From assembly GCA_015488755.1 (NCBI GenBank), contig WFNB01000091.1, forward strand, positions 1 through 51,551: 51,551 bases of DNA, in the 5' to 3' direction. Under the pieces are notes generated by a model. That model was not told the origin of the DNA. It was given only the letters and a program-made list of their open reading frames with translations, and searched no databases. Below are positions 12,105 through 40,387 of this stretch, piece by piece; positions within the stretch are counted from its first letter, which is position 1; every line of letters begins with the position of its first letter. The DNA is from Gammaproteobacteria bacterium (GTDB lineage: Bacteria; Pseudomonadota; Gammaproteobacteria; GRL18). Made by a program: the position numbers and the translations under genes.

Positions 12105-15100
12105 CTACTTTGCTCCCCTGCCATCGCGCTTATCAATGAGGTTATTGCTGACACTACCCATTGATTGTGTCGTGGTTGTTCTTGAACGTCTACCTCTGCG
12201 ACCCGTTGATTTTTTCTCTCTTTTAAGCTCTATATTTTGTGTGTTTTCTGAACTTGTGCCAGACATGGATGTTTTTTGCTCCGATGTTTCTGGCTTTTTA
12301 TCAGAAGAAGGCTGCTCTTTATTAGCTGAAGGCTCTTTATTAGCTGATGGCTCGTTATCAGCTAAAGGTTCTTTTTTGCTGACAGAAGATTCTTTATTAG
12401 CAGTAGTTTTTTGCTCATCAGTTGATGAATTAGCCACTTTAGCTTGTTTTTTTCTAGCTGTTTTTTTCTTACTAGCCGCTTTTTTCTTGGCTACGGGCTT
12501 AGGCTTTTCTATTGAATTTTCAGTTTTTTCCTTGTTATATTCACTGGTGTCATTCTGTGAAGTGTCGCTGCTTTCTTCATTATTTTTATTAACCTTTGTG
12601 GCAGATGTTTTCTTTTTTGCTGCTGTTTTACGGCGAGCCTTTTTCTTAGGTGCTGATTTTTTAGCAGGGGCGAGCTTGCTGTCACTTGTTTCTACTTCAT
12701 TCTCTTTTGAACTCTCAGATGCTATCAACGATGACTCTAAGGATGCTACTTTTGGAGAGTTTTTGTTTGCCTCAGAAGTATTATTTGAGGTTTTAGTTAC
12801 AGGCTCTTTAGTAACAGCTGATGGCTCTTTATTAGCTGATGGCTCTTTATTAGCTGATGGCTCCTGCTCTTTACCCACAGAAGCTTCCTTACTAGTTAAA
12901 GGCTCTTTACTAAAGTTCTGTGATGCCGGTGCTAAAACTAACTTTTTATTTAAGCTGGTTCTTCGACCGGTACGGCGGGAGCCAGAGTTTTTAGGTGCTT
13001 TTTTCTCTATTTCTTTATTTTGTGTCTTATTTTCTATGGTTTTAGGTTCTATTTCTACGTTTTTAGTTACGAGGGTAGACGCAGATACTTCTACTTTTTT
13101 AGTGTTAGCTATTGCTTGAACCTCTGTGGTGCCTTTATTTGCAGTATTTCTGTCCTTATTATTGTTTGTTGCTTGTGGTTCAGATTTTTTATTTGCTTGT
13201 GCTGCTTGTTTGTTATCGTCATTTTTACGACGGCTTTTGCTATTTGCATGTGACTTTTTGGTGTGATTGTTTTTTGCAATAGGCTTATCATCAGAGGCAG
13301 AAAAAATAGCAGCGGTTTCAGACTCTGTTACTATTGTATTTTCATTATTATAGGGGCGCTTCTGAGAACGGTTATTGCTTTTTTGAGCATGCTTATTGTC
13401 ATCACGTCGATTATTTGGTTTTTGAGATTTTTTGCGTGAATCTTGTTTATCTCTATTATCATTTTTCCGACGTTGATCTTGCTTTCGATCATTGCGTTTG
13501 TGTGTTGTTTGTTTATTGTGAGACGTTTTTGGTGTCTCGTTGGGAATGGCAGCAATGTCTTTTTCTTGTTCAGGCTTATTAAATAATGATGACCAGATGC
13601 GCTTCATTAATGAAGGGGCATTATTAGGCTGGGTTGCTTGTAATGCAGTGGGGGCTTTTACTGCAGGTTCTTCGATATTGGCAGGTTCTATAATAACACC
13701 ATTAGCATCGTCATCATTGATAAGGTAATTAAAATGATAGCTATTGACTTGATATTTATCGGTCATATTCTCATCATTACGAATACGTTCAATACGATAA
13801 TGAGGTGTTACTAAGCTTTCATTTGGTATAAGCGTGATGGTTATTTTCTGACGGCTTTCGATGTCACTAATAATATCGCGCTTATCATTAAGTAGAAAGG
13901 TTGCCACATTAACAGGTAATTGTGCCAGAATTCTACCGGTATTTTCCTTCATAGACTCTTCTTCTAGGATCCTTAGAACAGATAGACCTAAGGAATCAAT
14001 ACCACGAATGGTACCATGACCACTACAGCGTGGGCAGGTAATTTGGCTGGATTCACCAAGAGATGGTTTTAAACGTTGGCGAGACATTTCTAGGAGACCA
14101 AAACGGGAAATACGGCCTACTTGTACGCGTGCACGATCCAATTTCAAAGCATCTTTCATGCGATTTTCAACAGCACGTTGGTTTTTAGACGCAGACATAT
14201 CAATAAAATCAATGACCACAAGGCCACCTAAATCACGCAATCGTAATTGTCTAGCGACTTCATCCGCTGCTTCTAAATTGGTATTGACTGCGGTTTCTTC
14301 AATGTCACTGCCTTTAGTTGCTCTAGCAGAGTTGATATCAATTGAAATAAGCGCTTCGGTATGATCAATAACAATGGCACCGCCAGAGGGAAGGTTCACT
14401 TCTCTTTGGAAGGCGGTTTCAATCTGGCTTTCGATTTGATAACGTGAAAATAAGGGAATATTGTCAGTATAAAGCTTTACTTTGTGCAGATGCTGAGGCA
14501 TTACCCGCTGCATAAAATCATAGGCTTCTTTATAGGTTTTTTCTTCATCAATGATAATTTCAGTAATATCGGAACGTAGGTAGTCGCGAATGGCACGAAT
14601 AACGATATTGCTTTCTTGATAAATTAAAAATGGGGCTTTACGTTCTACTGAGGCATTATCAATGGCCGTCCACAAATGCAGTAAGTAATCCAGATCAAGC
14701 TGCAACTCTTCTATGCTTTTACCAATACCGGCTGTGCGTACAATGAGACCCATAGAGTCTGGTACATTAAGCTGACTGAGTATGGCTTTTAGTTCAGAGC
14801 GTTCTTCACCTTCAATTCGTCTTGAAATACCACCTGCTTTAGGATTGTTTGGCATTAAGACCAAATAGCGGCCGGGCAAACTAATAAATGTTGTTAGTGC
14901 TGCACCTTTATTTCCCCGTTCTTCTTTATCGACCTGAACGACCACTTCCATGCCTTCTTTGACCAGTTCAGAAATATGGGCACGTTTACCACGCTCGCTA
15001 GGTTGTTTGAAATACTGGCGGGAAATATCTTTTAGTGGTAGGAAACCATGTCGGTCTGCGCCATAATCAATAAAGGCTGCTTCAAGGCTGGGTTCTACTC

Positions 15101-15242
15101 GGGTGATCCTTGCCTTGTAGATATTGGCTTTTTTCTGTGTTCTTTGGGTGGTTTCTATGTCTAGGTTAAACAAGTGTTGACCATCGACTAACGCAACACG
15201 CAACTCTTCAGGCTGAGTGGCATTAAATAACATTCTTTTCAT
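12105..15242 (-). CDS. rne: Ribonuclease E
   Basis: This is the essential endoribonuclease for mRNA decay and rRNA/tRNA maturation and the scaffold of the degradosome at the inner membrane. The N-terminal half (1-~510) is canonical: S1 domain about 35-125, catalytic aspartates Asp302 and Asp345 (in SIDINS and VVIDFID), and the zinc-link CPRC (Cys403, Cys406). The C-terminal half (about 530-1045) is disordered and highly charged, with an Arg/Asn/Asp-rich tract (about 570-680), repeats of [11 protein letters not shown] type, and Lys/Ala-rich tracts resembling histone-H1 tails. Its binding sites for helicase, enolase or PNPase cannot be placed. A long leader suggests RNase E autoregulation, as in E. 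coli. Confidence 0.97.
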
Positions 15243-34317: not shown

Positions 34318-35183
34318 TGTCTATTTTAATTAATAAAGACACGAAGGTTATTTGTCAGGGCTTTACAGGGCAACAAGGTAGTTTTCATTCTGAACAAGCG
34401 ATTGCTTATGGTACCAATATTGTGGGTGGTGTTACGCCCGGTAAAGGCGGTCAAACGCATTTAGATCGTCCTGTTTTTAATACGGTAAAAGAAGCAGTAC
34501 AAGCAACAGGTGCTGAAGCCACCATGATTTACGTACCGGCTGCGTTTGCCGCAGATGCCATTTTAGAAGCGGCAGGTGCAGGTATTAAAGTTATTGCCTG
34601 TATTTCCGAGGGCATTCCCGTATTGGACATGCTAAAAGTAAAGGCCAGTCTAGCTGCTGATGTACGTCTTATTGGTCCCAACTGCCCAGGTTTAATTACG
34701 CCTGGAGAGTGTAAAATTGGTATTATGCCAGGCAATATTCATCTTAAGGGCAAAATTGGTATCGTGTCACGTTCAGGTACGTTAACCTATGAGGCCGTAC
34801 ACCAAACAACTATAACAGGTCTTGGACAAAGCACCTGTGTGGGAATTGGTGGCGATCCGATTCATGGTATGAATTTTATTGACTGCCTTGCGTTATTTGA
34901 GAAAGATCCACAAACCGAAGGGATTATTATGGTGGGTGAGATTGGTGGTACGGCCGAAGAAGAAGCTGCTCAGTTTATTAAAGATCATGTGACTAAGCCT
35001 GTGGTTGCTTACATTGCTGGTGTGACAGCACCTAAAGGCAAACGCATGGGACATGCAGGAGCAATTATTGCCGGTGGTAAGGGCACAGCAGAAGAAAAAT
35101 TTATTGCTTTAGAAGCAGCAGGAGTCAGTATTACTCGATCACCTGCTGAAATGGGTCAGACCATGTTGGCTATTATGAACTAA
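34317..35183 (+). CDS. sucD: Succinate--CoA ligase alpha subunit
   Basis: This is the partner of SucC and carries the phosphohistidine. The 288-residue protein has the CoA-binding Rossmann part ([28 protein letters not shown]) and the active-site region [17 protein letters not shown] with the phosphorylated His of the GHAGA motif. Both are intact. It is translationally coupled to sucC. A 14-bp inverted repeat follows 10 bases after the stop. Confidence 0.97.
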
Positions 35184-35193
35184 TAATCGCTTG

Positions 35194-35240
35194 ACTCTGA
35201 ACTTTGAGTCTGTCTTTGTTTGTTATTCAAAGTTCAGAGT
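35194..35240. repeat. Perfect 14-bp inverted repeat downstream of sucD
   Basis: ACTCTGAACTTTGA (35194-35207) is exactly complementary to TCAAAGTTCAGAGT (35227-35240), with a 19-nt loop. It lies between convergent sucD and the TPR/beta-barrel gene. It has no T-run, so it may be an RNA 3'-end stabiliser rather than an intrinsic terminator. Confidence 0.55.
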
Positions 35241-35309
35241 GTACCGTGTTGACTCTCCTCAAAAAATCTACTGCTCTTTTTTATAAGTACTGTTTTATAA
35301 GCCATTGTT

Positions 35310-36623
35310 TTAGAAATACATCTGTAAACTAAAAATTACTTGATGACGTTGATAATCTCTACGAGCATCAGATGACTTATTTTTTGTCCATGAGTGTTGG
35401 GCTTTTAATGAGAGATATTGGTTTAGGCGAATAAGTCCACCCCAAGAAAGTTGCACTTGTTTATCATTACGCTCAAATGAGTTTACTTTAGGGTAATTAC
35501 TAAGGCGATATTTGCTACTGGCATTTACTAATATGTCATCACTTAATGCATACGTTATTTGACCATTGAGACTATGGCGTTGTGGAGAATAACTGTATTT
35601 TGCTTTATCTTGACGATCATTAAGTTCTAATTCGTAGTAAAATTGTGTTTTATAGTTTTTCTTATGGTAGTACGTAGTAAGTCTTAATTTTTGCCGTACG
35701 CCTTCCAAAAAATCATAGCGTTTATTTTGTGATGTAATTGCTTCATAAGAATACTTTAGTGAGGAATAAGATGAATCATTATCATAGTATGTTGATTTCA
35801 GTTCAAGGCCTTCTATTTTCTGATAATCTTGTCCGCCATATTTTGACCATTGGGTCGTTAAGCTGGGTTGTATTTCCCAATTTTTACCTAAGCCTTTATA
35901 TTGTATTGGAAACTTAAGAAATAATGATGTTTGGGTATAATCACTAATATTGATGGTGTCATAATTAACATCATAAAGATAAGCATCTAATATAATATTG
36001 ATAGGAAATTTTTTAGAAACCTCCTGCTGAGTGAGTGATAATGTTGTATAAAATAATAGTTCAGTATAGGTATCATCAACACCACTGCCTAGATCAATTG
36101 GAGTAAAATTAACATTATCATCATAGCCTTTACTTATTTTAAGTAGGGTTTGCCATGGCTTGTGCTCTGAAGTATGTTGCTTTTCTAAGCGTTTTTTGGC
36201 TAGTTTTGTTAATGTTGGGTTTTGACTGGTTTTTATAACAATTTGTAAATGTTGTTTAGCAATTGTTATTTTATTTTTCTTAAGGGCTACAAGAGACAAA
36301 TTATAATGGCCTAAAGGAGAAAATCCAGGGTCACTTAATGTTTTTGAAAAATTTTCCCATGCTTTGTCCAGTTGTTTTTCTTTAAAATAAAGTACCCCAA
36401 GGTTATGGTAAAGCTGAACCTCATGGTAACCCTCCCGTTGTGCTTTTTTAAAAAACTGCAATGCTTTATCTGTTTCCCCTTTTTTATAGTTACTCACACC
36501 ATCTAAAAAATATTTTTCAGCATTATTATTTTTTATTGTATTATCTGCTTGAGCCGTGAATGTTAATAGTAAAAAACATAAAAAAGTTGTATACAAATGG
36601 TATTTTAATATCATAGAAGACAT
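35310..36623 (-). CDS. TPR plus beta-barrel outer-membrane protein, Slam-like
   Basis: The 437-residue protein has a Sec signal peptide (about 1-27). A TPR array follows (about 35-150; NAEKYFLDGVSNYKKGETDK, YHNLGVLYFKEKQLDKAWE). From about 160 to 437 it is beta-rich with alternating aromatics, starting at GYDDNVN (166-172) and ending in a terminal Phe, the usual signal for barrel insertion by BAM. This is the layout of surface lipoprotein assembly modifiers (Slam), which move proteins across the outer membrane. It could instead be another TPR/porin-like protein. It is the last gene of the ECF-sigma cluster, after a terminator. Confidence 0.75.
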   Translation of the reverse strand: MSSMILKYHLYTTFLCFLLLTFTAQADNTIKNNNAEKYFLDGVSNYKKGETDKALQFFKKAQREGYHEVQLYHNLGVLYFKEKQLDKAWENFSKTLSDPGFSPLGHYNLSLVALKKNKITIAKQHLQIVIKTSQNPTLTKLAKKRLEKQHTSEHKPWQTLLKISKGYDDNVNFTPIDLGSGVDDTYTELLFYTTLSLTQQEVSKKFPINIILDAYLYDVNYDTINISDYTQTSLFLKFPIQYKGLGKNWEIQPSLTTQWSKYGGQDYQKIEGLELKSTYYDNDSSYSSLKYSYEAITSQNKRYDFLEGVRQKLRLTTYYHKKNYKTQFYYELELNDRQDKAKYSYSPQRHSLNGQITYALSDDILVNASSKYRLSNYPKVNSFERNDKQVQLSWGGLIRLNQYLSLKAQHSWTKNKSSDARRDYQRHQVIFSLQMYF

Positions 36624-36711
36624 TCTATTTTCTCTGGTTTATTATCTTATCAAAAATAAATCACTCGCTTTAATTGATTTATTTCAGATTATTGCTCAAT
36701 TTTAAATAGAA

Positions 36712-36745
36712 AAATATCTCTTTGAGTGTGCTCAAAGAGATATTT
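36712..36745 (-). terminator. Rho-independent terminator inside the ECF cluster
   Basis: A 15-bp perfect stem (36712-36726 with 36731-36745) has a 4-nt loop. Read on the minus strand it is followed by TTTTTCTATTT. It sits between the exported-protein gene at 36802 and the TPR/beta-barrel gene, so part of the transcript probably stops here. Confidence 0.75.
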
Positions 36746-36801
36746 GTGCTTAGAATTCCATGCTGTGTTTTTAGCATGTCAGTTAAATGTAAGTAAAATT
36801 T

Positions 36802-37362
36802 TTAATTATCACCATCTGTAGGTAATGTAGGAAGAACAGGAGTATTTGGTGCATTAGGAATATTAGGTGGTAAATGTTCAGGTATCTCATTAGGTAAATT
36901 ACCCCCTGGTCCTAATGGTAAATCTGAATTAATAGGCCTATCATCAGGATCACTGGGGAAGTTTTCTGGAACAATCCCTGGAGAATGATTGGGTAGAATC
37001 TCTGGTAACTCAGGAGGCATATCTTCTGGCAAGTCGCCTCCAGGGCCACCATTTGCCTCAATGGGTAAGTACGCAAATTCATTGTTACTTTCAGACATAA
37101 TGCTGGCCGCCGCATCTACAGAGGGAGACTTTTTCTGTAATTCTTGAGCCACTTCAGAGCCGTCAGGAATAGACAATTGGCTACGTGCCTCTACTTGGGA
37201 AAGCATACTGTTTATCGTGACATTTGATGTATCATTAGTTGATGAAAAATTAATTTTATTAATTGAATCAGTATTCATAATTTGCAGTGTTGTATTATCC
37301 GCATGGCTTAGTATAGGTAGTAAACTCATACTGATTAATATATTCATGCTTAATTTGTTCAT
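36802..37362 (-). CDS. Exported proline-rich protein B (paralogue of 37732-38085)
   Basis: The 186-residue protein has a signal peptide (about 1-21, cleaved near SHAD). Its N-terminal third is homologous to the upstream neighbour: MNKL...ILIS..LLPI, TLQIM..D.I, INFS, then SE(V/I)AQE. The second half is a Pro/Gly/Asn-rich low-complexity tail with two degenerate units starting GGPGGDLPEDMPPELPE and GPGGNLPNEIPEHLPP. There are no cysteines and no membrane helix, so it is probably periplasmic or secreted. A strong AGAGGAA precedes the ATG. I do not recognise the family. Confidence 0.65.
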   Translation of the reverse strand: MNKLSMNILISMSLLPILSHADNTTLQIMNTDSINKINFSSTNDTSNVTINSMLSQVEARSQLSIPDGSEVAQELQKKSPSVDAAASIMSESNNEFAYLPIEANGGPGGDLPEDMPPELPEILPNHSPGIVPENFPSDPDDRPINSDLPLGPGGNLPNEIPEHLPPNIPNAPNTPVLPTLPTDGDN

Positions 37363-37731
37363 AAGTATTTCCTCTATTGTTTTCTTATATTATGCTACGA
37401 TAGAAGGTGTTTATTACATGGCTTTTGAAACAGTATGATCCTGTAAGTCAGGCATTAGGCCTATTAGATTGTTTTCCATGGTTTCTTTATTCCTTCATTG
37501 CTTATTAGAACGATTGTTTTATAGATAAAGTTCCATGTTCAAAAAAATAATTTAATTTACTGCTAACGCTATATATGTTATTAATTAAAAATGGTGATTT
37601 TTACTCTAATATTATAACTTGAATATTAGAAACTAAGGATGTTAAAAATCACCAAAAGAGGGGGGGAGTTTTTTTAGATAACATAATCATATCTAAGAAA
37701 TAATTTTTATTTATTTCTATTTGTTTGCTAT
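37363..37731. other. Intergenic gap between the two exported paralogues, with a cruciform
   Basis: No gene is seen. GGTGATTTTTAC (37593-37604) pairs with 37641-37653 (one bulge), and inside it TCTAATATT (37605-37613) pairs exactly with AATATTAGA (37622-37630). A G7 run followed by a T7 run lies at about 37659-37675. The structure could be a processing or attenuation site in the cluster mRNA. Confidence 0.5.
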
Positions 37732-38085
37732 CTAAAAATTCGTTTTGTTTGAAAATGTGGCTGTTTCTGGTGGTGTACTAGAAAGTTCTGATGGTAAATT
37801 GTTAGGTTCCTCGTATATTGATGTTGCTGTGGGATCCGGATGTTCAGTCAATGGTTCTTGGGCAATCTCAGACCGTTCAGACAAAGGTAAGTCTATTGTT
37901 GGGTCATAAGGAGCTAGAGATTCTTTTTTCTTAGCTTTTGGTAGGGAAAAATTAATATTATTAACCCCTTGTGCTATTGCATCTGCATCCATAATCTGCA
38001 GTGTAATATCATCAAAATCATCTGCTAGTGTATTAATAGGTAATAAAATAAGACTGATTAGTATGCTAAGAGTAAGCTTATTCAT
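37732..38085 (-). CDS. Small exported protein A (paralogue of 36802-37362)
   Basis: The 117-residue protein has a Sec signal peptide (about 1-21, MNKLTLSILISLILLPINTL then AD). The mature part starts with acidic residues and ITLQIMDADAI. It continues as a hydrophilic Pro/Ser/Glu-rich chain with SEIAQEP, lacking the long tail of its paralogue. It follows the anti-sigma gene by 47 bases on the same strand. It may be a target, signal or cargo of the sigma/anti-sigma pair. The family is unknown. Confidence 0.62.
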   Translation of the reverse strand: MNKLTLSILISLILLPINTLADDFDDITLQIMDADAIAQGVNNINFSLPKAKKKESLAPYDPTIDLPLSERSEIAQEPLTEHPDPTATSIYEEPNNLPSELSSTPPETATFSNKTNF

Positions 38086-38132
38086 AGATAATTTTCTCTA
38101 GTGTTTTATTTGAATTGATAGGTAAAATTAAA

Positions 38133-38774
38133 TTATAGTATTAGATTATTTTCTTCTTTGGAACGTATGTGTAAACGGAATGATTTACTTTTATTAATAT
38201 GGGCGATTCGAGCAACAAGATCACCTTTTCCTACCGTTAGTGCAATAAGAGGGAGTGTTAATATGTTACTTCCCTTTTTAATATCCACTCTCCAATCCAG
38301 TTCTTTTTGACCAGGATAACCAGCAATTTCAAACCCCTCTGGAAGTTTTAGGTTAAATTTAACAGCCTTAAAGTCACCTGGAGAATCAAATATCATTTGT
38401 ACCGTGCGTGTTTTATTAAGCGCCATTGATATCAGGGGAAACTGATTGTTTTCTGGAGCGGTTGCTATTGTGTTGCTACTCAAAAACCAAACAACCAAAC
38501 TTGCAGCAATGGCACTAGTAAAACCTGAAATAAAATATTTCTGTTCAGGTTTATGGTTATGATGTGCCTTCTGCATTGCCTCTTTTAGAAAGTCTGGGTT
38601 CACATCTTCTACCGGCAGATTTTTTAATGCATGACGTAAATCCTTCTCCTTGGTTAATTTTGTGTAGCAAGTGCCACAGGTTTTTATGTGAGCAGATATC
38701 GCATCATGTTGTAATATAGGTAACTGAGAATCTAAAAAATGTTCAATATTAACGTCTACTTGTTGGCATTTCAT
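38133..38774 (-). CDS. Membrane anti-sigma factor with a zinc-binding ZAS motif
   Basis: The 213-residue protein has an N-terminal zf-HC2 anti-sigma domain with HxxxCxxC at His29, Cys33 and Cys36 (HIKTCGTC). A cytoplasmic linker, one membrane helix (about 81-100) and a beta-rich periplasmic domain (about 113-213) follow. It would hold the adjacent ECF sigma factor inactive until an envelope signal arrives. It begins three bases after the sigma gene's stop. The periplasmic domain (FNLKLPEGFEIAGYPGQ) is not one I can name. Confidence 0.85.
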   Translation of the reverse strand: MKCQQVDVNIEHFLDSQLPILQHDAISAHIKTCGTCYTKLTKEKDLRHALKNLPVEDVNPDFLKEAMQKAHHNHKPEQKYFISGFTSAIAASLVVWFLSSNTIATAPENNQFPLISMALNKTRTVQMIFDSPGDFKAVKFNLKLPEGFEIAGYPGQKELDWRVDIKKGSNILTLPLIALTVGKGDLVARIAHINKSKSFRLHIRSKEENNLIL

Positions 38775-38777
38775 ATT

Positions 38778-39332
38778 TTATCCCTTAGTAATATTAGCAT
38801 GATAGTTTTGTTGATAAGGTTCCCTACTTAGTAATGTTCGTAATTGTGAGCGAGCACGACTTAAACGGGATTTAATTGTACCTATGGGAATATCGAGTAT
38901 GTTAGCAAGTTCTTTGAGAGTATAGCCTTCAATATCAGAGAGTATAATTAGAACACGCTGATCATCATTTAATGTGTTTACTATGTTTATTAACTGTTGT
39001 TGTGAGGATGTCTCCTCAGCTAATGCTTCTGGCGTTGTGTTATTGCTAGTAAGACGGTCTAATTTTGTTTCATCATTATCCAACCATGCCATGGGGGAAC
39101 GCTGTTCTCGTCGTTTGATATCTAGATAGAGATGATAAAGCACCCGTACCATCCAAGCTCGTAAATATTCAATAGACTGCATTTCATTTCGTTGTGGGTA
39201 AAGCTTAATTAACAACTCTTGAATTAAGTCTTCGCTATCGGGTGTGTTACCGCATAGGCGATAGGCGACCCGATATAAATGTTTTATATGTGGTTGAAGA
39301 ATGGTCTCGAATGTTTTCTTGCCAAAGCGCAT
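38778..39332 (-). CDS. ECF-family RNA polymerase sigma factor
   Basis: The group 4 sigma factor has region 2 (YRVAYRLCGNTPDSEDLIQEL, split here as YRVAYRLCGN and DSEDLIQELLIKLY) and region 4 (LSDIEGYTLKELANILDIP and GTIKSRLSRARSQL). An earlier in-frame ATG at 39359 exists. The ATG at 39332 has GGAAA at good spacing and leaves room for the likely promoter at 39366-39393, so the 184-residue form is preferred. It heads a cluster with an anti-sigma factor, two exported proteins and a Slam-like barrel protein. Confidence 0.9.
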   Translation of the reverse strand: MRFGKKTFETILQPHIKHLYRVAYRLCGNTPDSEDLIQELLIKLYPQRNEMQSIEYLRAWMVRVLYHLYLDIKRREQRSPMAWLDNDETKLDRLTSNNTTPEALAEETSSQQQLINIVNTLNDDQRVLIILSDIEGYTLKELANILDIPIGTIKSRLSRARSQLRTLLSREPYQQNYHANITKG

Positions 39333-39365
39333 TAGTTTCCAACTATTTTTTAATTTCATACCATC

Positions 39366-39393
39366 TTAACGCTCAATCATATAAAAAGGTTCC
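39366..39393 (-). promoter_or_regulatory. Probable ECF-type autoregulatory promoter
   Basis: On the minus strand GGAACC (39393-39388) and CGTTAA (39371-39366) are 16 bases apart. A GGAAC -35 with a CGT-type -10 is the classic ECF sigma pattern. The start would be about 25 bases before the preferred sigma ATG at 39332. Confidence 0.55.
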
Positions 39394-39502
39394 CAAAGCA
39401 GTAAAACTTTGCTATTAAAATAGGAAATGACTAAGATTGATGCAAGATTTTTAGAGTGTTATGGCGTTTGGGTAAGTCTTGGAGTCTCATTGTAATTGTT
39501 CG

Positions 39503-40387
39503 CTAATGATCTGAATAGATTGTAGGAATGGCTTGTCGTTTGTGTTCTGTCTGACTATAAATCTGAATAATATGATTTTCTACATCTTTAGCCACATTTC
39601 GTCCCTCAAGAAAATCATCAATTTGGTCATAAGTCAGTCCTAAAGCATCTTCATCGGCTTTAGAGGGGGCTAGAGATTCCAAGTCGGCTGTTGGTGTTTT
39701 ATTGATGAGTGTTTCAGGTGCTCCCAGTATGTTAGCAATTTGTCGGACTTGGCGTTTATTTAAACCAAATAAAGGCGCTAGATCGCAAGCACCATCACCA
39801 AACTTGGTATAAAAACCGGTGACATTTTCTGCTGAGTGATCGGTTCCGATAACCAAGCCTTTTACCAGCCCAGCAATTTCAAATTGTACAGCCATACGTG
39901 CTCTGGCCTTGACATTACCTTTGGCAAAATCAATCGTAGCTTCGGATTGTTTCATTAAGCCTTGGCTATTTAAGGCACTAAAAACAGCCTCATGAATACC
40001 ATCAGTACCAGGTTTAATATTAACCGATAAGTTATGATCAGCCTGAATAAACTGTAGTGCTAACTGAGCATCTTCTTCATCGGCCTGAATGCCATAGGGT
40101 AGACGAATAGCAAAAAACTGATAGGTTTGATTGCCTGTTGTCATATTAAGATCATCAATGGCTAGTTGTGCCAGTCGACCACAGGTACTAGAATCAACCC
40201 CGCCACTAATACCTAGCACTAAGCTTTTAAGGCCGGATGACTTGAGTTGTGCTTGTATAAAAGCAATGCGTCTTTGGATTTCAAACTCAGGATCAATTTC
40301 AGGTAAGACTTTCATTTCACTAATAATTGTTTGTGCATCCAAGGGGGATTCTCCATTTAAGCTAAATATATGGGTAAATTTTATCAT
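39503..40387 (-). CDS. nadE: NAD(+) synthase, ammonia-dependent
   Basis: NadE amidates nicotinate adenine dinucleotide to NAD. The protein has the PP-loop SGGVDSS (residues 61-67), the [11 protein letters not shown] region, [21 protein letters not shown] and the [23 protein letters not shown]-terminal part. There is no glutaminase domain, so ammonia is the expected nitrogen donor. The 294-residue reading uses ATG at 40387. An ATG at 40315 gives [16 protein letters not shown] and 270 residues, closer to E. coli NadE (275), so the true start is uncertain. Confidence 0.95.

Follow-up and report, generated by a model that had tools for sequence, protein, structure and literature searches.

We analyzed a 51,551-nucleotide stretch of DNA from a gammaproteobacterium (GTDB lineage GRL18; assembly GCA_015488755.1, contig WFNB01000091.1), hereafter called the window, which contains a cluster of five co-directional genes on the minus strand. 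In order, these encode an extracytoplasmic function (ECF) sigma factor, a membrane anti-sigma factor, two small exported proteins (A and B), and an outer-membrane protein that combines tetratricopeptide repeats (TPRs) with a barrel. An earlier interpretation made without database searches (the sequence-only reading) had proposed this order, and all five open reading frames (ORFs) are present where it placed them. By comparison across genomes, the ECF sigma factor, the zinc anti-sigma factor, one small exported protein, and the TPR-barrel protein were shown to form a conserved unit, and we think that the module probably exports proteins in the unfolded state by a route not yet described. The features of the cluster are as follows.

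39368–39393, minus strand: putative ECF promoter P1 (GGAACC-N16-CGTT) ahead of the sigma factor gene, a pattern common to 21 of 46 loci
38778–39359, minus strand: ECF sigma factor, 193 amino acids (Sigma70_r2 and Sigma70_r4)
38133–38774, minus strand: membrane anti-sigma factor with a zinc anti-sigma (ZAS) domain, a predicted membrane helix, and a periplasmic immunoglobulin (Ig)/MG7-like beta-sandwich
37732–38085, minus strand: exported protein A, 117 amino acids, with a Sec signal peptide, no Cys, and a low-complexity tail
37939–38022, minus strand: N-terminal conserved motif of A (DDFDDITLQIMDADAIAQGVNNINFSLP), from an alignment of 34 sequences
37509–37534, minus strand: putative ECF promoter P2 (GGAACTTTATCTATAAAACAATCGTT) ahead of B, a match to the strict genome-wide pattern
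36802–37362, minus strand: exported protein B, 186 amino acids, a paralogue of A with a tail rich in Pro, Asn, and Glu
37243–37299, minus strand: N-terminal motif of B (DNTTLQIMNTDSINKINFS)
36712–36745, minus strand: terminator-like hairpin between B and the barrel gene, a perfect 15-bp stem followed by a run of T
35310–36623, minus strand: TPR and 14-strand outer-membrane barrel protein, 437 amino acids, the candidate exporter (PF10082 by Pfam; remote relative of the Slam/type 11 secretion system (T11SS) proteins)
36180–36527, minus strand: periplasmic TPR domain of this protein, roughly residues 33–148
35313–36161, minus strand: 14-strand barrel domain of the same protein, residues about 155–437

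The cluster is not a single simple operon, given the separate ECF-type promoter of B and the hairpin that lies between B and the barrel gene. P1 lies very close to the called start of the sigma factor gene, so translation may in fact begin at an ATG further downstream. An Rfam scan of window positions 35100–39700 gave no matches. Between P2 and B, a 21-codon ORF with a possible ribosome site (MENNLIGLMPDLQDHTVSKAM; window positions 37417–37482, minus strand) was also seen, and might encode a leader peptide.

To place the cluster among its relatives, homologues of the barrel protein were gathered from GTDB contigs and whole genomes, many of them at 28–31% identity, and the ORFs of each locus were annotated with profiles for the sigma factor, the anti-sigma factor, the barrel, and the small protein. 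Among the 45 barrel loci with at least 2.5 kb of upstream sequence, sigma and anti-sigma genes lay upstream on the same strand in 42, and in 37 they were accompanied by a small exported protein recognized by a profile of its N-terminal motif (a motif protein). In most loci with no match to this profile, a diverged small secreted low-complexity ORF occupied the same slot. One locus (L095) had the full set, but with the barrel gene on the opposite strand, and the complete set was found in three further genomes. Within the genus and family of the window itself, a close homologue occurred in only 1 of 23 genomes (G004), where the contig is not long enough to include its neighbors.

The co-occurrence of the components was then counted in 369 genomes of a single class, Gammaproteobacteria; most of the relatives are metagenome-assembled genomes. 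The barrel was found in 41 genomes, a detected motif protein in 34, and the anti-sigma factor in 38. All 34 genomes with a motif protein contained the barrel (Fisher p 1.7e-41), and the anti-sigma factor was present in 37 of the 41 barrel genomes (p 3.5e-45); related genomes are not independent in these statistics, though the 41 barrel genomes span tens of families. The sequence-only reading had set its proposal against the case in which homologues of A and B occur freely, apart from the barrel or sigma genes. This pattern was not seen: at the threshold used, none of the 328 barrel-free sampled genomes contained a motif match. The four-part module, as judged from gene content, is thus conserved across many uncultured Gammaproteobacteria and is not a local curiosity. 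Three barrel genomes in which the anti-sigma factor was not detected (G024, G291, and G181) have kept the barrel together with three motif proteins each, mostly scattered and with differing repeat tails. The simplest reading of this pattern is one exporter serving several cargoes, and it follows from the presence of motif proteins and barrel without the anti-sigma factor that the motif is not solely in the anti-sigma factor's service.

The similarity that the sequence-only reading had noticed between A and B was borne out, in that the two align from the signal peptide into the mature N-terminus with a score that none of 1,000 shuffles attained. The part shared after the Sec signal peptide comprises about 25–30 residues with the consensus DDVTIxVMExxD...IELP, in which, in the numbering of A and across 34 sequences, T28 is invariant and P49 nearly so. 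Beyond the motif, the proteins are of low complexity and unconserved; the median tail is 31% acidic, 17% basic, and 8.5% bulky hydrophobic, and the tails often consist of short tandem repeats (e.g., SRDDAND, DEKDEAH, PSKDT, and KFERPKFE). Searching the small proteins against Pfam gave nothing beyond matches due to chance or low complexity. Neither A nor B has a Cys, and their cleavage-site alignment shows no lipobox Cys at the mature N-terminus, so they are not lipoproteins. No Pfam domain of the C-terminal 8-strand TbpBBD/lipoprotein C barrel type was found in A, B, or their relatives. The pairing of two paralogues, which had been taken as part of the system, did not hold up: most loci contain a single small protein, and A and B are therefore a local duplication rather than a conserved pair. 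As a separate observation, the scattered motif proteins of one family in G024, G291, and G181 share an ending in which a single Cys precedes an Arg-rich stretch (CPRRNS, CIRNRR, CPRRR, and CPYRAPRRTARIR; loci L154:4012–4467, L156:2274–2615, L158:1222–1890, and L159:3600–4028), possibly a C-terminal tag.

For the barrel protein, the AlphaFold2 model (predicted local distance difference test (pLDDT) 81, predicted template modeling score 0.59) agrees with the TPR domain and 14-strand barrel ending in Phe that had been suggested from the sequence. The same proposal called the barrel Slam-like, which is correct only in a broad sense. The best named Pfam family is PF10082 (BBP2_2), at 31.2 bits against a gathering score of 23.7, along with generic TPRs; this match spans only residues 349–434, in the C-terminal part of the barrel, and the family is also matched by 14 of 16 relatives. 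PF04575, the Slam family, was not listed for the window protein in the Pfam search up to E 1, and in the class search it gave two matches below the cut-off among family members (E 2.9e-4 and 6.9e-4). However, when profiles were compared with those of PF04575 proteins of the same class, the probability was 99.9% over the full length (E 2.5e-32, 394 columns) and 99.6% for the barrel only (E 7.9e-24), against 4% and 0.9% for the reversed controls. Based on this profile homology and the low scores of its controls, we place the protein in the Slam/T11SS superfamily, taken broadly, as a remote relative along its full length that lies beyond the bounds set by Pfam for the Slam family. The nearest solved folds were OmpG and CymA for the barrel and IpgC and other TPR proteins for the TPR part, and the TPR-barrel protein BcsC ranked high in the Foldseek matches; Slam structures are absent from the PDB fold lists, an absence that carries no evidential weight. 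In other sampled gammaproteobacteria, PF04575 barrels have as their direct downstream neighbor an exported protein of FecR- or LysM-like appearance (L097, L099–L105, and L108), possibly another undescribed class of cargo or regulator.

The assignment of the first two genes to an ECF sigma factor and a ZAS-motif anti-sigma factor was confirmed. The sigma factor has regions 2 and 4 only and adjoins an anti-sigma factor with a His/Cys zinc motif; residues C3, H29, C33, and C36 of the latter are retained in all 47 homologues compared. The model of the anti-sigma factor (pLDDT 86) contains the helices of the cytoplasmic zinc domain, a presumed membrane helix (residues 86–99), and a beta-sandwich (residues 112–210). 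The best matches of the beta-sandwich include macroglobulin domains of complement C3–C5 (Z about 9–10); the fold is widespread in protein binding and by itself points to no function. One of the strands of the anti-sigma factor (residues about 136–145; family consensus xVTLxxxLP) resembles the motif DVTIxVM...IELP of the small proteins, and strand mimicry between the two is possible. Extra or degenerate anti-sigma copies, remote from any barrel, were observed in G123 and G338 (L166–L168).

The pattern GGAAC[CT]-N15-17-CGT was found upstream of the sigma factor gene in 21 of 46 loci, compared with a shuffle mean of 0.2, mostly 27–36 bases before the called start. The pair thus has the features of an ECF sigma factor with a class I zinc anti-sigma factor, including a GGAAC-type promoter before its own operon. 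In the 3.5-Mb genome, the strict pattern GGAACYTT-N14-CGTT had exactly two matches, P1 and P2, and the reversed strict pattern had none. Only the strict pattern is informative, because the looser GGAACY-N16-CGTT gave 9 matches against 12 for its reversed control and hence showed no excess. A role of the sigma factor as a broad regulator of envelope stress is unsupported, the strict matches being confined to the cluster; the simplest reading of these promoter patterns is that the sigma factor controls its own module and very little else. Terminator-like hairpins occurred between the motif gene and the barrel gene in 12 of 42 loci, including the window (0.4 expected), and in none of 37 gaps between the anti-sigma gene and the motif gene. 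These recurrent terminators are consistent with cargo being made in excess of the exporter.

Taken together, we judge it somewhat more probable than improbable that the module is a T11SS-like exporter for natively disordered cargo that is marked at the N-terminus and controlled by its own sigma factor. The small proteins would cross the inner membrane via Sec and, being natively disordered, would remain unfolded and would not have to be held in that state. Their motif would be recognized at the TPR domain or the barrel entrance, and the 14-strand barrel would conduct them outward, either to the cell surface or into the medium. The anti-sigma factor would free the sigma factor upon an envelope or surface signal sensed via its periplasmic Ig-like domain, and the released sigma factor would transcribe its own operon as well as B and the barrel gene, with the terminators between cargo and barrel genes allowing many cargo molecules per exporter.

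This proposal can be compared with the Slam/T11SS systems (DUF560, PF04575 SlipAM), with which the module shares an N-terminal TPR domain, a C-terminal barrel (14 strands in the present model), remote homology over the whole length, the signature G-Y-D-x-N close to the first strand and a second one, N-x-S-N...Y-x-R, towards the end, and a candidate cargo encoded beside the barrel. Slam translocates unfolded protein, aided by the holdase Skp (PMC9090332), and T11SS cargo is recognized by a C-terminal 8-strand barrel (PMC8406197, PMC12282271). Unlike these systems, the barrel here falls below the PF04575 cut-off, the module has a dedicated ECF sigma/anti-sigma pair, and the candidate cargo is non-lipidated and disordered, with an N-terminal motif and without the C-terminal 8-strand domain. 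The targeting mark would be the N-terminal motif because the C-terminal one is absent here. The proposal made from the sequence is partly supported: homologues of A and B are tied to the barrel almost one to one, but the barrel does not pass the Slam Pfam model, A and B are neither lipoproteins nor equipped with the C-terminal barrel, and their pairing is a local duplication. BBP2_2, whose gathering score the protein does pass, is an uncharacterized family and is uninformative about function and about the TPR domain. The cargo class and the dedicated regulation would be new for a T11SS-like barrel.

Several points weigh against export by the barrel. The known cargo mark of T11SS is missing from A and B, and the disorder of the tails was judged by composition. 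The motif profile was trained on small proteins neighboring barrels, which biases detection towards the barrel context. Two genomes count against a strict rule of barrel and partners: G033 has, at L165:4188–5896, the sigma factor, the anti-sigma factor, and a motif protein, with the barrel undetected, this motif protein having scored below the threshold of the genome search and hence lying outside the 34 motif genomes, and G160 has a barrel without partners. Finally, in a mirror-tree analysis, the distances between motifs tracked those of the anti-sigma factor (partial correlation 0.22, p 0.006) at least as closely as those of the barrel (partial correlation 0.14, p 0.05), and the motif may bind the anti-sigma factor instead of, or besides, the barrel.

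Two of these observations, the co-variation of the motif with the anti-sigma factor and the gene set of G033, favor an alternative in which the small protein is a signal and not a cargo. Its motif would dock on the Ig-like domain of the anti-sigma factor or on the TPR domain, and its disordered tail would lie in or through the barrel, as in the complexes of RcsF with outer-membrane proteins (OMPs), so that envelope or surface damage would shift the small protein and free the sigma factor. Threading of RcsF through OMP barrels is already established, the anti-sigma beta-sandwich is of a type typical for protein binding, and close matches to the promoter are, in this genome, confined to the cluster. 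RcsF/OMP and FecI/FecR surface signaling also share with the module an outer-membrane barrel with an extracytoplasmic partner and, in FecI/FecR, an ECF sigma factor with a membrane anti-sigma factor. However, the module has no TonB receptor, FecR-type anti-sigma factor, or lipoprotein sensor, its close promoter matches lie in the cluster only, and A and B, without Cys, could have no RcsF-like lipid anchor. Furthermore, a signal fits poorly with tails that vary without limit, with terminators suggesting that motif protein is made in excess of barrel, and with the three genomes that have a barrel and several motif proteins but no detected anti-sigma factor. We think that sensing by itself is unlikely. 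When export and sensing are joined, a feedback reading results, in which the Slam-related barrel would export disordered proteins by their short N-terminal motif and the anti-sigma factor would read the state of export via the same motif, so that backlog or depletion of cargo would set expression; we advance this reading tentatively and consider it unlikely.

It is also conceivable, and in our view distinctly unlikely, that the barrel carries another substrate, as a porin or a PgaA/BcsC-like polysaccharide exporter, and that the charged disordered proteins are periplasmic hydrophilin-like or ion-buffering stress proteins that share only its regulation. Pfam does assign the barrel to BBP2_2, a putative porin family, the fold matches include the porins OmpG and CymA and the TPR-barrel BcsC, and several tails resemble the charged repeats of stress proteins. 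PgaA and BcsC likewise join periplasmic TPRs to an outer-membrane barrel. Their TPR arrays are much longer, and they belong to polysaccharide operons without a sigma/anti-sigma pair or a motif protein, whereas, among the loci inspected here, we noticed no neighboring genes for polysaccharide synthesis. Against this alternative, the profile homology to the Slam family spans both TPR and barrel, and a periplasmic stress protein needs neither a strict N-terminal motif nor a near-absolute linkage to a barrel. It is very improbable that the protein is a true Slam/T11SS member with its usual cargo elsewhere in the genome and A and B as accessories, as the common architecture and remote homology might suggest, since the window protein does not reach PF04575, the barrel's neighbor is a motif protein instead, and the TbpB-type cargo domain (PF01298) was not found in 8 genomes, in a search that was silent in the controls too.

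Elsewhere in the window (positions 12105–15242, minus strand), a long ORF of the RNase E/G type has an extended low-complexity C-terminal half with repeated similar units.

The sequence-only reading knew of no described system of this kind, and our literature search likewise found none joining DUF560 with an anti-sigma factor or type 11 secretion with an ECF sigma factor, although such a search is weak because most subscription journals were outside its reach. In the T11SS surveys, the word “sigma” occurs 0 times (PMC8406197, PMC12282271). According to these surveys, most barrel clusters are without known cargo, and unknown targeting domains have been suggested. For a remote T11SS branch, the module offers a testable answer, namely natively unfolded proteins that carry a short motif at the N-terminus. 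In tens of gammaproteobacterial families, their genes lie next to the barrel gene, together with a sigma factor of their own whose regulon seems confined to the module. If this is true, outer-membrane secretion would gain a class of cargo and a rule for targeting, disordered polypeptides could be exported by a compact system of two genes, and small proteins without a Pfam match would become recognizable in genomes.

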